From a virus, in IMG/VR virus record IMGVR_UViG_3300035704_000020, positions 1 to 25,626 of that record: a stretch of DNA of 25,626 bases; one strand, 5' to 3'. Positions 1,313 through 12,654 of this stretch are shown piece after piece. The position numbers and the translations under genes were made by a program. Below the pieces are notes generated by a model that saw only the letters and a program-made list of their open reading frames with translations, had not been told where the DNA came from and did not search any database. Positions within the stretch are counted from its first letter, which is position 1. Each line of letters begins with the position of its first letter.

Positions 1313-2253
1313 GCTACGAGATCCTCGTCTACCAGCCGACGCCAGCGGCGGCCGTCCCGCCGCCCCCGGCCCGCGACCGCACGGACGAGCTGATCGTGCG
1401 CATGTGGATCTCGGGCAAGGCCGCCAACACGCAACGCGGCTACGCCGCCGACGCCCGCCGCCTGTTCGAGCACGTCGGCAAGGCCCTGGACCAGACCTCC
1501 CTCGAAGACCTGCAGTCGTTCGCCGAGGACCTGCAGCGCAAGGGCCTTTCGCCGGGCACGCGCAAACGCATCCTCGCCGCGGTCAAGTCCCTCTTCACGT
1601 TCGCCGCCGACATCCGCCACCTGCAATACAACGTGGCCGCCGCGCTCCGGCTGCCCAAGGCCAAGGACACGCTCAACGAGCGCATCCTCAGCGAGAGCCA
1701 GGTCAGCGACCTGGTCGCCGCGGCCGAGCCCGGGCGCAACCGGCTGATACTCGAGCTTCTCTACCTGGTCGGGCTGCGGGCGGAAGAACTGACGTCGCTG
1801 TGCTGGCGCGACGCCCGGGCGGACTCGGGCGGCGCAATCCTGACCGTCTTCGGCAAGGGCAGTAAGACCCGCCATCTGAGATTGGATCCGGAGACGTGGG
1901 CCCTGCTCGGCACATGGCGCGGCGACGCGGCTCGACTGAGCTCGCCGAAGTCCGGCGACGGCGACCCGGTCTTCGCCAGCCGGGAGGGCGGCGGTGGGAA
2001 GGCGCTGAGTACCGTGCAAGTGTGGCGGATCGTCAGCCGGGCCGCGAAGCGCGCCGGGCTGAAGGCGTCGCCGCATTGGCTGCGGCATTGCCACGCGAGC
2101 CATGCCATCGACCACGGGTGCGACCTTCGCACGCTGCAGCAGAGTCTGGGCCACGCTTCCAGCGAAACTACCGAACGCTACATCCACTCGCGCCCTCGGC
2201 AGTCGAGCGGGGCGTTCGTGAAGCGGCCCGGGCCGCCGGCGGGTGAAGGATAA
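1309..2253 (+). CDS. int: Tyrosine recombinase / phage integrase (Xer-like)
   Basis: The 314-residue product has the two-domain layout of XerC/D-type recombinases: an N-terminal SAM-like core-binding domain (about residues 25-115) and a C-terminal catalytic domain (about 125-305). The full catalytic set is visible: Arg157 in GLRAEEL, the beta-hairpin Lys in GKGSKTR (183-189), His256 and Arg259 in HWLRH, His282 in LGHAS, and the nucleophile Tyr291 in ERYIHS. No lambda-type arm-binding domain precedes the core-binding domain, so a simple two-arm core site would suffice as substrate. The gene is coupled to the upstream ORF by ATGA. A dif-like palindrome overlaps its stop codon. It contains an unusual 28-bp repeat (1926-1953) shared with the capsid gene. 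It would integrate and excise the element. Confidence 0.95.
   Translation: MSYEILVYQPTPAAAVPPPPARDRTDELIVRMWISGKAANTQRGYAADARRLFEHVGKALDQTSLEDLQSFAEDLQRKGLSPGTRKRILAAVKSLFTFAADIRHLQYNVAAALRLPKAKDTLNERILSESQVSDLVAAAEPGRNRLILELLYLVGLRAEELTSLCWRDARADSGGAILTVFGKGSKTRHLRLDPETWALLGTWRGDAARLSSPKSGDGDPVFASREGGGGKALSTVQVWRIVSRAAKRAGLKASPHWLRHCHASHAIDHGCDLRTLQQSLGHASSETTERYIHSRPRQSSGAFVKRPGPPAGEG
1926..1953. repeat. 28-bp interspersed repeat, copy 1 (inside integrase)
   Basis: This stretch differs at one base (1945) from 15316-15343 in the protease/capsid gene. The core ctcgactgagctcg is shared, followed by a variable base and cgaagtcc. Both copies are read in the same frame, as AARLSSPKS here and AARLSSSKS in the capsid fusion. 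It has a short dyad around TGAGCTC and resembles small palindromic repeats that are interspersed in many environmental bacterial genomes. Confidence 0.75.
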
Positions 2254-2270
2254 CGCCAATTATCTTTCAC
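2243..2270. other. dif-like recombination site (candidate attP) overlapping integrase stop
   Basis: The left arm GTGAAGGATAA (2243-2253) and right arm TTATCTTTCAC (2260-2270) flank a 6-bp centre, CGCCAA. This is the 11-6-11 geometry of XerC/XerD dif sites, with the same inner ends ATAA and TTAT. The dyad continues outward to 2237 and 2276, giving 17 pairs with two G-T positions. The 28 bp are about 39% G+C in a window near 70%. The TAA of the left arm is the integrase stop, so exchange in the centre would leave the gene intact. As RNA it would be a long hairpin, so a terminator role is the main alternative, although no T-tract follows. Confidence 0.6.
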
Positions 2271-2569
2271 TCGCCGCGCCCCCAGCGCCGGCCCCTTCCG
2301 CGGAATCAGAGAGGTTGTCAAGGTGTCGGCAGCGACATGATGGCGGGACGGGTCCTTTTGGGGGGTGGGTCGGGGCCCGCGGGTAAACGTCGGGCGGAAT
2401 TTTCACACGCGGGCGACCCAGATTCCACGTCTCCACCACCACCACTGGCCGCCAGCCCGCCAGACGGCCGCGGGATTTCCGACCAGCCGCGGATTCGCAA
2501 TGCATATTGCTAGAAGCGCGAGCGGGCCGGGAGAAAAACCGGGAAACGGCGCGCCGGAGGGCACCCGAC
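2254..2569. other. Non-coding region with small inverted repeats
   Basis: These 316 bp between the integrase and the next likely start contain no convincing gene. After the dif-like site there is a perfect TGTCG-gcag-CGACA dyad (2324-2337) and an AT-rich dyad GCAAT-gcat-ATTGC (2497-2510). A TTGTCA at 2315 could be a -35 box, but a matching -10 is weak. The cluster of dyads fits an attachment or regulatory region. GGAGG at 2556-2560 is the ribosome binding site of the next gene. Confidence 0.5.
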
Positions 2570-4379: not shown

Positions 4380-4594
4380 GACGACTGACCCCCTTGCTGC
4401 TGCTCGCCCTGGCCGGCTGCGGCTCCCAGGCCGTCCTCGTCGAGCCCGGAACGGCCGTGCGCCTCTCCCGCGACGCCAGCGGGTACGTCTACGTGCGCGA
4501 CGGGAACGGTCAGTGGATCGAAGGCACCAAGCCCGTGAAGCTTCCGGCGGGGTGGTACGTGATCCCGCCCCCGACGACCCGCCCCGCGAATTAG
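4376..4594 (+). CDS. Small lipoprotein, candidate outer-membrane spanin subunit
   Basis: The 72-residue product begins with a lipoprotein signal: MRRL, a Leu-rich core, then the lipobox LAGC with Cys15 as the lipidation site. The mature part is about 58 residues, contains RDASGYVYVRDGNGQWIEG and LPAGWYVIPPP, and ends Pro/Thr-rich. Size, lipobox and Pro-rich tail fit a Rz1-like o-spanin. The next gene has the topology of an i-spanin. Classical o-spanin genes usually overlap or nest with the i-spanin gene, whereas here a 39-bp gap separates them. A superinfection or surface lipoprotein is the alternative. The lipobox is clear; the spanin role is inference. Confidence 0.6.
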   Translation: MRRLTPLLLLALAGCGSQAVLVEPGTAVRLSRDASGYVYVRDGNGQWIEGTKPVKLPAGWYVIPPPTTRPAN

Positions 4595-4633
4595 CCCCGA
4601 CCGCGCCGCCGCGACGCAAGGTAGACCGCTCCC

Positions 4634-10476: not shown

Positions 10477-12654
10477 TTGTTCGCCGGCCGCCGCAGAAAG
10501 AAGACGCCGGCGCCGCCGCCGGCCGCGGCGGGCACGGCCGGCCGCACCGCCGCCGGTTACGAGCGCGAGCGGGAGCGGCTGGCGAGCCTCAAGGCGGACC
10601 GCAGCCGATCCGGCCGAGACATCGGGCCCCTGCCCACGGTCGCCCAGCCCGATCGCAAGGCGCGGTGTCGCGAGAGCTTCGAGGCATTCTGCAGGACCTA
10701 TTTCCCGCAGACCTTCGCCCTGGCCTGGTCACCCGACCACCGCCGGGCGATCGACCGCATCGAGCAGGCGATGAAGTGCGGCGGCCTGTTCGCCTTCGCC
10801 ATGCCTCGCGGCGCGGGCAAGACGTCGCTGGTGGTGGCGGCCTACCTGTGGGCGCTGCTGTACGGCTACCAGGACTTCGTGGCCGTCATCGGCGCCGACG
10901 CCGGGGCGGCCGGGAGCCTGCTGGACAGCGGCAAGAGCGAATTGGAGTGCAACGAGGCGCTGGCCGAGGACTTCCCCGAGGCGTGCTACCCGATCCGGCG
11001 GCTGGAGGGCATCGCCCAGCGCGGCAACGGCCAGCTCCTCGACGGCCGCCGCACCCACATCGGGTGGACCGCGACCGAGATCGTCCTGCCGACCGTCGCC
11101 GGCAGTTCCTGCTCCGCCGGCATCGTCCGCGTGGCCGGCATCACCGGCCGCATCCGCGGGATGCAGTACAGCCGGCCGGACGGCAAGAAAGTCCGCCCCG
11201 GGCTGGTCATCGTCGACGACCCCCAGACCGACGACAGCGCCAAGTCGCCCAGCCAGGTCAACACCCGGGAGAAGATCGTCAAGGGCGCCGTGCTGGGCCT
11301 GGCCGGTCCCGGCAGGCAGGTGGCGGGGCTGATGCCCTGCACGGTCATCGCCGCCGACGACCTGGCGGACCGGTGCCTGGACCGGTCCAAGCACCCGGAG
11401 TGGCAGGGCGAGCGGACGAAGCTGCTGTATGGGTGGCCGGCCACCGCGGAGCAGCTCAAGACCGACGAGGCGGTCAAGCGGCGCGAGGACCTGTGGGACG
11501 CCTACGCCAAGGTGCGCGGCGACAGCCTCCGCAACGGCAACGGCGGGCGGGAGGCGACGGAGTTCTACGCCGCCAACCGCGAGGCCATGGACCACGGCCT
11601 GACCGCGGCCTGGCCGGTGCGGCACAAGCCGTCCGAGCTGTCGGCGATCCAGCACGCCTTCAACCTGATGCTGGACTTGGGCCGGGCCGCCTTCCTGGCC
11701 GAGTACCAGAACGACCCGCAGCCCGCCGAGGCGCTGGCGGACGTCGGACTCACCGCCGCCCAGGTCGCCGCCAAGGCCGACGGCACGCCCCGCGGCGTGG
11801 TGCCGGCCGAGGCCACGCGGTTGGTGGCGTTCGTGGACGTGCAGAAGGAGTTGCTGTTCTACGCCGTCGTGGCCCTGCAGGACGATTTCAGCGGCCACGT
11901 CGTCACCTACGGCACGCACCCCGACCAGAAGCGGGAGTTCTTCACGAAGGCCGACGTGCGGCGCACGCTGATCGACGCCGAGAAGGCCAGCCGCTGGGAG
12001 GAGGCGCTGGCCAAGGGCCTGGAGACGCTGGCCTCGCTGATCCTGGCCCGGGAGTGGGAGCGGGAGGGCGGCGGGGCGGCGCGGATCGAACGGTGCCTGG
12101 TGGACGCCCGCTGGGGCGAGTCCACCCCGATCGTCCGCAAGTTCTGCCGCAAGAGTGCCCACGCCGGCGTCCTGCACCCGAGCTTCGGCGCGGGCGTCGG
12201 GGCGAGCAACCTGCCCCTGACGGAGCGGAAGAAGCAACCGGGTGACCGGTTCGGGCTGCACTGGGTCATCCCGCGGCCCGCCCCGGACAAGGGCCGCCAC
12301 GTGGTGTACGACGCGAACAGTTGGAAGTCGTTCCTGGTGACCCGGTTGAAACAGGAGGGCGGCGGGGGGGGATCGTTCACCCTCTTCGGCCGCCCCGAGG
12401 ACCACGGGCTGCTGGGATCGCACCTGACGGCCGAGTACGCCGTCGAGACCGAGGGCAGGGGGCGCAAGGTGCAGGAGTGGAAGGTGCTTCCGCACCGGCC
12501 GGATAACGACTTGCTCGACTGCCTCACCGGCTGCTGCGTGGCCGGCTCGATCGCCGGGGCCGCCCTGCAGGAGCTGCAGCAGCAGGCCGGGGCCCGCAAG
12601 CGCGTCAGCCTCGCCGAGCTGCAGAAGAACGCCCGGCACCACGCCGCGCGATGA
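10477..12654 (+). CDS. terL: Terminase large subunit
   Basis: The protein has 725 residues from a TTG start; ggggaagg at 10461-10468 supports that start. The ATPase domain shows a Walker A motif, MPRGAGKTS (109-117, Lys115), and a Walker B motif, LVIVDDPQT (about 243-251, Asp247/Asp248). The C-terminal RNase H-like nuclease shows acidic residues at Asp454 (AFVDVQ), Asp543 (LVDARWGES) and the DNDLLD cluster (676-681). Together they form a complete packaging motor and headful or cos nuclease. The length is somewhat above the usual 450-650 residues and includes a long inter-domain region. The basic N-terminal 60 residues (RRRKKTPAPPP) may contact TerS or DNA. The stop overlaps the next start as ATGA. 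Confidence 0.93.
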   Translation: MFAGRRRKKTPAPPPAAAGTAGRTAAGYERERERLASLKADRSRSGRDIGPLPTVAQPDRKARCRESFEAFCRTYFPQTFALAWSPDHRRAIDRIEQAMKCGGLFAFAMPRGAGKTSLVVAAYLWALLYGYQDFVAVIGADAGAAGSLLDSGKSELECNEALAEDFPEACYPIRRLEGIAQRGNGQLLDGRRTHIGWTATEIVLPTVAGSSCSAGIVRVAGITGRIRGMQYSRPDGKKVRPGLVIVDDPQTDDSAKSPSQVNTREKIVKGAVLGLAGPGRQVAGLMPCTVIAADDLADRCLDRSKHPEWQGERTKLLYGWPATAEQLKTDEAVKRREDLWDAYAKVRGDSLRNGNGGREATEFYAANREAMDHGLTAAWPVRHKPSELSAIQHAFNLMLDLGRAAFLAEYQNDPQPAEALADVGLTAAQVAAKADGTPRGVVPAEATRLVAFVDVQKELLFYAVVALQDDFSGHVVTYGTHPDQKREFFTKADVRRTLIDAEKASRWEEALAKGLETLASLILAREWEREGGGAARIERCLVDARWGESTPIVRKFCRKSAHAGVLHPSFGAGVGASNLPLTERKKQPGDRFGLHWVIPRPAPDKGRHVVYDANSWKSFLVTRLKQEGGGGGSFTLFGRPEDHGLLGSHLTAEYAVETEGRGRKVQEWKVLPHRPDNDLLDCLTGCCVAGSIAGAALQELQQQAGARKRVSLAELQKNARHHAAR

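Follow-up and report, generated by a model that had tools for sequence, protein, structure and literature searches.

Modules in which a recombinase is encoded next to its own resolution site are of a known kind. The closest described systems are Cre/loxP of phage P1 (PMC2409434), TnpI/IRS of Tn4430 and Tn5401, in which the IRS is made of an inverted-repeat core plus accessory repeats and lies upstream of the TnpI gene (PMC7157771), and the XerCD/dif and single-recombinase Xer systems (PMC5357621, PMC3025954). Many tyrosine recombinases of plasmids and phages are annotated merely as integrases. In one survey, the families that resolve plasmid multimers could not be identified (PMC3414803), and Kono et al. 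detected no dif in Cyanobacteria in their dif survey (PMC3025954). Among integrating phages, phiAP1 of Acetobacter is a studied temperate phage that inserts in a tRNA-Ser gene via a 24-bp attP (PMC8566455).

Here, we analysed a palindrome that overlaps the end of a tyrosine recombinase gene in a 25,626-base virus record from IMG/VR (hereafter the window, that is the whole stretch of DNA analysed). As the record is classed linear, it is probably a fragment.

An Xer-like recombinase without an arm-binding domain

The recombinase gene (positions 1309-2253, + strand) encodes a protein of 314 aa with Pfam matches to PF00589 (1.6e-29) and PF02899 (2.5e-8). Pfam finds the SAM-like core-binding and catalytic domains and nothing else, the N-terminal arm-binding domain of canonical phage integrases being absent from this protein. 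In NCBIfam and PDB, the protein matches XerC, XerD and XerA best, with XerC-like/XerA and XerD proteins as the nearest solved structures, and no Cre is found among the PDB sequence matches at E≤0.001. The original prediction of an Xer-like enzyme that lacks an arm-binding domain thus agrees with the domain and family searches. Identity with a chromosomal XerC, XerD or XerA was considered and rejected, as the scores fall far under the NCBIfam equivalog cut-offs (156 vs 335 bits for XerC, 153 vs 330 for XerD and 146 vs 220 for XerA). R157, H256, R259, H282 and Y291 are invariant in the first alignment and fit the usual tyrosine-recombinase catalytic set. In a tree, the recombinase family branches separately from E. 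coli XerC/XerD, though support is moderate (92/83), and the window recombinase itself receives no firm placement.

This is the only tyrosine recombinase in the window record, where no ParA match was found. A GpA-type terminase large subunit (10477-12654, + strand, PF20454 4.7e-14) lies downstream of it on the same strand, an order found in 11 of 11 records with such a terminase, window included. Further along, a long frame at 14480-16807 matches the capsid family PF25209 in its C-terminal part, with about 450 residues ahead of the match, and is perhaps a protease-capsid fusion.

A dif-like dyad spans the stop codon of the gene

At 2243-2270, the window holds an 11-6-11 dyad with 10 of 11 pairs matched and the inner ends ATAA N6 TTAT. 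The left 11-bp arm GTGAAGGATAA (2243-2253, + strand) is followed by the 6-bp centre CGCCAA (2254-2259, + strand) and by the right 11-bp arm TTATCTTTCAC (2260-2270, - strand), and the left arm ends with the TAA stop of the recombinase (2251-2253). The centre is the predicted crossover region, across which strands would be exchanged, and its geometry is kept in relatives. The dyad extends imperfectly to 2237-2276 (no strand assigned), with arms at 2237-2253 and 2260-2276 that form 17 pairs including two G-T positions. The G+C content of the 28-bp site is 39%, compared to ~69% on either side. Dyad, extension, overlap with the stop codon and A+T-richness were all described in the original prediction and are borne out here.

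Length by itself says little about such a dyad. In 400 first-order Markov shuffles of the window, 11-6-11 dyads with at least 10 of 11 pairs occurred 0.90 times per shuffled window, which is unremarkable, and we dropped dyad length as evidence. This rate is also what a chance palindrome has in its favour. Against it, ATAA N6 TTAT arose 0.005 times per shuffled window, the two features together occurred in none of the 400 shuffles, and with a matrix built from other relatives the dyad scores 32.0 vs 14.1 for the next-best place in the window; we regard a chance origin as having a negligible probability. ATAA N6 TTAT has a single copy in the whole 25.6-kb window, the one at 2243-2270. The top-scoring dyad of the window is another one, a long imperfect inverted repeat at 430-490 with 28-bp arms (GCTCCGGGC...GCCCGGAGC) that precedes the ORF at 621.

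Given its location at a gene end, the dyad could alternatively be a hairpin at a transcript 3' end, either a terminator or an RNA-stabilising structure after the recombinase operon. Its + strand RNA, in which the two imperfect pairs are G-U, folds well (z -4.85), but a good RNA fold would be expected of any such dyad. After the stem come C and G rather than a T tract, and no terminator-like site was called at the dyad, which speaks against the terminator that the original prediction had kept as its main alternative. Moreover, in the relatives described below the site precedes the gene, its centre keeps a constant 6 bp and its A+T-rich inner ends ATAA/TTAT are conserved; a hairpin function is accordingly very unlikely.

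Matching sites adjoin the gene in plasmid and phage relatives

The closest relatives of the recombinase (37-47% identity, 47% being the highest of any relative) are carried by plasmids, among them those of cyanobacteria and Methylobacterium; many of these plasmids are small, and in some cases ParA genes lie close by. The phages phiAP1 and phiKM1 also carry relatives. A single-protein search of IMG/VR and GTDB for close relatives returned distant ones only. A search with the portal protein led to related phages, and none of the 8 records tested (L007 among them) matched the recombinase alignment. In a phylum search, the family is present at E≤1e-75 in 22 of 244 cyanobacterial genomes, a patchy, accessory-like distribution. 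One circular plasmid, the 17.7-kb pNYY1_7 of Methylobacterium radiotolerans (L028), combines a family recombinase with ParA and an HK97-type prohead protease, and is perhaps a phage-plasmid or the remnant of one.

Because a strict 6-bp dyad search missed many relatives, we scored the surroundings of the genes with a leave-cluster-out matrix, in which each cluster's own members are excluded from scoring. Of 43 non-redundant relatives (clusters), 17 have a matching site adjoining the gene at p≤0.01, where ~0.4 would be expected, and a significant adjacent site is missing in the other 26 clusters at this threshold. The seed sites of the matrix were picked by eye, and the matrix is hence not blind; the checks are the leave-cluster-out scoring and a DNA-only search. 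At a score of at least 16, the 13.2 kb beside the gene contain 10 sites vs 3 in 273 kb elsewhere. A dyad scan shows the same layout in phiAP1 (AAGATAA gtgtag TTATCTT), phiKM1, pCMU02 and others, and in a Gloeothece verrucosa plasmid (L072) the left-arm letters of the window (ATGAAAGATAA) recur 2 bp upstream of the homologous gene. The dif-like geometry and inner ends on which the original prediction was built are therefore met again beside homologous genes in both plasmids and phages. One cyanobacterial site pattern has 1 copy in its own genome and none in three related-family genomes, with no second chromosomal copy seen in these four.

In IMG/VR, exact and degenerate versions of the window's own site gave 0 matches. 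The DNA-only pattern CGCAAGATAA N6 TTATCTTGCG was found there in 13 contigs, and the recombinase lies beside the site in 10 of them, all of the phiAP1 type. Three metagenome phage contigs share the perfect dyad CGCAAGATAA GCCACT TTATCTTGCG (L116, 4891-4916; L118, 9163-9188; L123, 6233-6258), whose arms are those of the phiAP1 core; no tyrosine recombinase was found in these records of 62 kb, 10 kb and 20 kb, respectively, and the site is an orphan there. Also, the record of one relative (L039) holds a strong dif-like site ATGCGCGATAA N6 TTATCGCGCAC at 4592-4619, 1.4 kb upstream of the recombinase and not adjoining it.

The significant sites lie 2-125 bp upstream of the gene, with the window, where the site is downstream, as the sole exception. 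In the window, the stop of a small upstream ORF (1082-1312, + strand, no family match) overlaps the recombinase start (ATGA, 1309-1312) and so leaves no upstream gap for a site, which may be why the site is found downstream. An upstream position is also what one would look for if the dyad were mainly an operator from which the recombinase controls its own gene, and TnpI does regulate from its site too (PMC7157771). However, the window's dyad lies downstream of the gene, and regulation could go along with recombination rather than replace it; a mainly regulatory dyad is in our view a remote prospect.

phiAP1 carries an Xer-like recombinase and dyad besides a probable integrase at attP

The relative of the window recombinase in phiAP1 is PhiAP1_290 (40% identical), whose dyad at 12330-12363, the one such site in that genome, lies 12 kb from attP. 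In the phiAP1 record, attP is at the first base and adjoins PhiAP1_010, a protein that has an arm-binding domain. From this position beside attP, PhiAP1_010 can be inferred to be the published phiAP1 integrase. Eight further records (G001, G004, G007, G010, G015, G279, G280 and G282) also contain a second, longer integrase frame besides the Xer-like one, each within ~2.3 kb of a record end, and these eight are not independent, several being close kin of phiAP1.

Nine phages of the phiAP1 group carry two further elements ahead of the core, a half-arm at -32 and a second dyad, ATAA N7 TTAT, at about -77, and the first dyad is thus the core element of an array with three parts. The arm letters vary between phages and agree within one (permutation p = 0.0004, with the shared ancestry of the phages uncorrected), as would be expected if one recombinase reads all arms. 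No accessory arms were found near the window's site, which in this respect resembles a bare lox or dif core.

The array also bears on whether the dyad is a site for the host XerC/XerD, by which the phage would hijack host dimer resolution or integrate at dif like the CTX phage. The 11-6-11 geometry is dif-like, and phages with such sites are known (PMC3025954). However, this type of site travels with this recombinase family, its letters agree within a phage and vary between phages, and its arms are near-symmetric whereas XerC/XerD sites share only partial dyad symmetry (PMC5357621). We see a slim chance at best for a host XerC/XerD site.

The phiAP1 data likewise bear on the attP proposed in the original prediction, according to which the same recombinase would integrate the phage into a host site with the same core, as do the arm-less integrases of some phages (e.g. 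Brujita). Simple recombinases can integrate phages (PMC8138268), the window record has this tyrosine recombinase only, and the part of the proposal by which the gene stays intact after a crossover at the dyad stands. The attP reading itself is weakened. First, the homologous site of phiAP1 is not its attachment site, attP lying beside the other integrase. Second, a second integrase is present in the eight further records. Third, plasmids carry most close relatives, and no prophage with such a site at its bounds was seen. The original prediction would have been contradicted by integrated relatives ending elsewhere; phiAP1 is such a case, but its recombinase is ~40% identical and none of the cases is of the window's own lineage. 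Taken together, we consider it unlikely, to a lesser degree than for the readings above, that the dyad is an attP. Since the site need not be an attP, its intactness says nothing on the integration state, and a circular, unintegrated phage, as deduced in the original prediction, does not follow from it.

A self-contained module that may keep phage DNA monomeric

The dyad is very probably the crossover site of the recombinase whose gene overlaps it, as judged from its letters and from its linkage to the family. For recombinase and site together, a role in monomerisation or circularisation is moderately likely. The joint reading, in which the crossover site belongs to a self-contained module that would keep circular phage DNA monomeric or help its circularisation, is the one we hold to be probable. 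Upkeep of monomers of circular DNA is more likely than insertion of the phage into a chromosome, because relatives of the gene and its site are found on plasmids and also in phages that integrate elsewhere, where the recombinase is a second one.

What the sequences themselves show is the site, the family of the recombinase and the linkage of the two in relatives; binding, recombination and the role in monomerisation are deduced. The most likely mechanism would work in the manner of P1 Cre/lox; it is proposed from the occurrence on plasmids, the split of tasks between the two phiAP1 recombinases and the array found in relatives. Recombinase protomers would bind the two near-identical arms, and two sites, present either because the genome is dimeric or because terminal redundancy repeats its ends, would synapse. 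Strand exchange across the 6-bp centre would then yield monomer circles, each retaining an intact site and an intact recombinase gene. As the arms are symmetric, one recombinase should suffice, with no need for a XerC/XerD pair. Counting against the joint reading, the window is the sole significant member with a downstream site and has neither accessory arms nor a ParA match. The record, a probable fragment, shows a single tyrosine recombinase and no second integrase. The distance of the relatives (47% identity at most) and the 26 of 43 clusters lacking a significant adjacent site weigh against it as well.

There is perhaps an even chance of a wider picture, in which tailed phages divide the work between two tyrosine recombinases: one that has an arm-binding domain would serve lysogeny, and an Xer-like one, with its own lox/IRS-like site ahead of the packaging genes, would resolve or circularise phage genomes. 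The latter would belong to an unrecognised module family, made of recombinase plus site and common to plasmids and temperate phages. In phages, this pulls apart two roles usually lumped as "integrase", and it cautions that a dif-like dyad adjoining an integrase gene need not be an attP. A family with many members on cyanobacterial plasmids also gains predicted crossover sites beside its genes, which makes its function directly testable. We found no description of the family, of its sites or of a second-recombinase role in integrating phages in the literature searched, a partial coverage of phage lox/pac and plasmid resolution families.

Comparison with known systems

As in Cre/loxP, a phage tyrosine recombinase has a core site of its own, with symmetric arms, near its gene, and there is one site per genome in the window and in phiAP1; the likeness in function, that is monomeric phage DNA, is inferred for the window. 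Unlike Cre, the window enzyme is Xer-like, its site is 11-6-11 vs the 34 bp of lox, and in contrast to P1 its phage is not known as a plasmid. With TnpI/IRS, it shares a tyrosine recombinase with a resolution site beside the gene, and the phiAP1 group comes closer still, with core, half-arm and second dyad upstream of the gene. However, the family sits on phages and plasmids with no transposase, and the IRS-type accessory repeats present in the phiAP1 group are absent from the window, which has the core only. The Xer systems have the same 28-bp 11-6-11 site with ATAA/TTAT inner ends, and their XerC, XerD and XerA are the proteins most similar to the window recombinase; the window module differs in that it is not chromosomal, its arms are nearly symmetric, its site adjoins the gene and its scores are far under the family cut-offs. 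PhiAP1_290 shares with the window the core geometry and the place upstream of the terminase, whereas its site precedes the gene and has accessory arms, and its phage has a second, arm-binding integrase beside attP. Finally, the family may correspond to the "Cyan" subgroup of simple tyrosine recombinases (PMC8138268).
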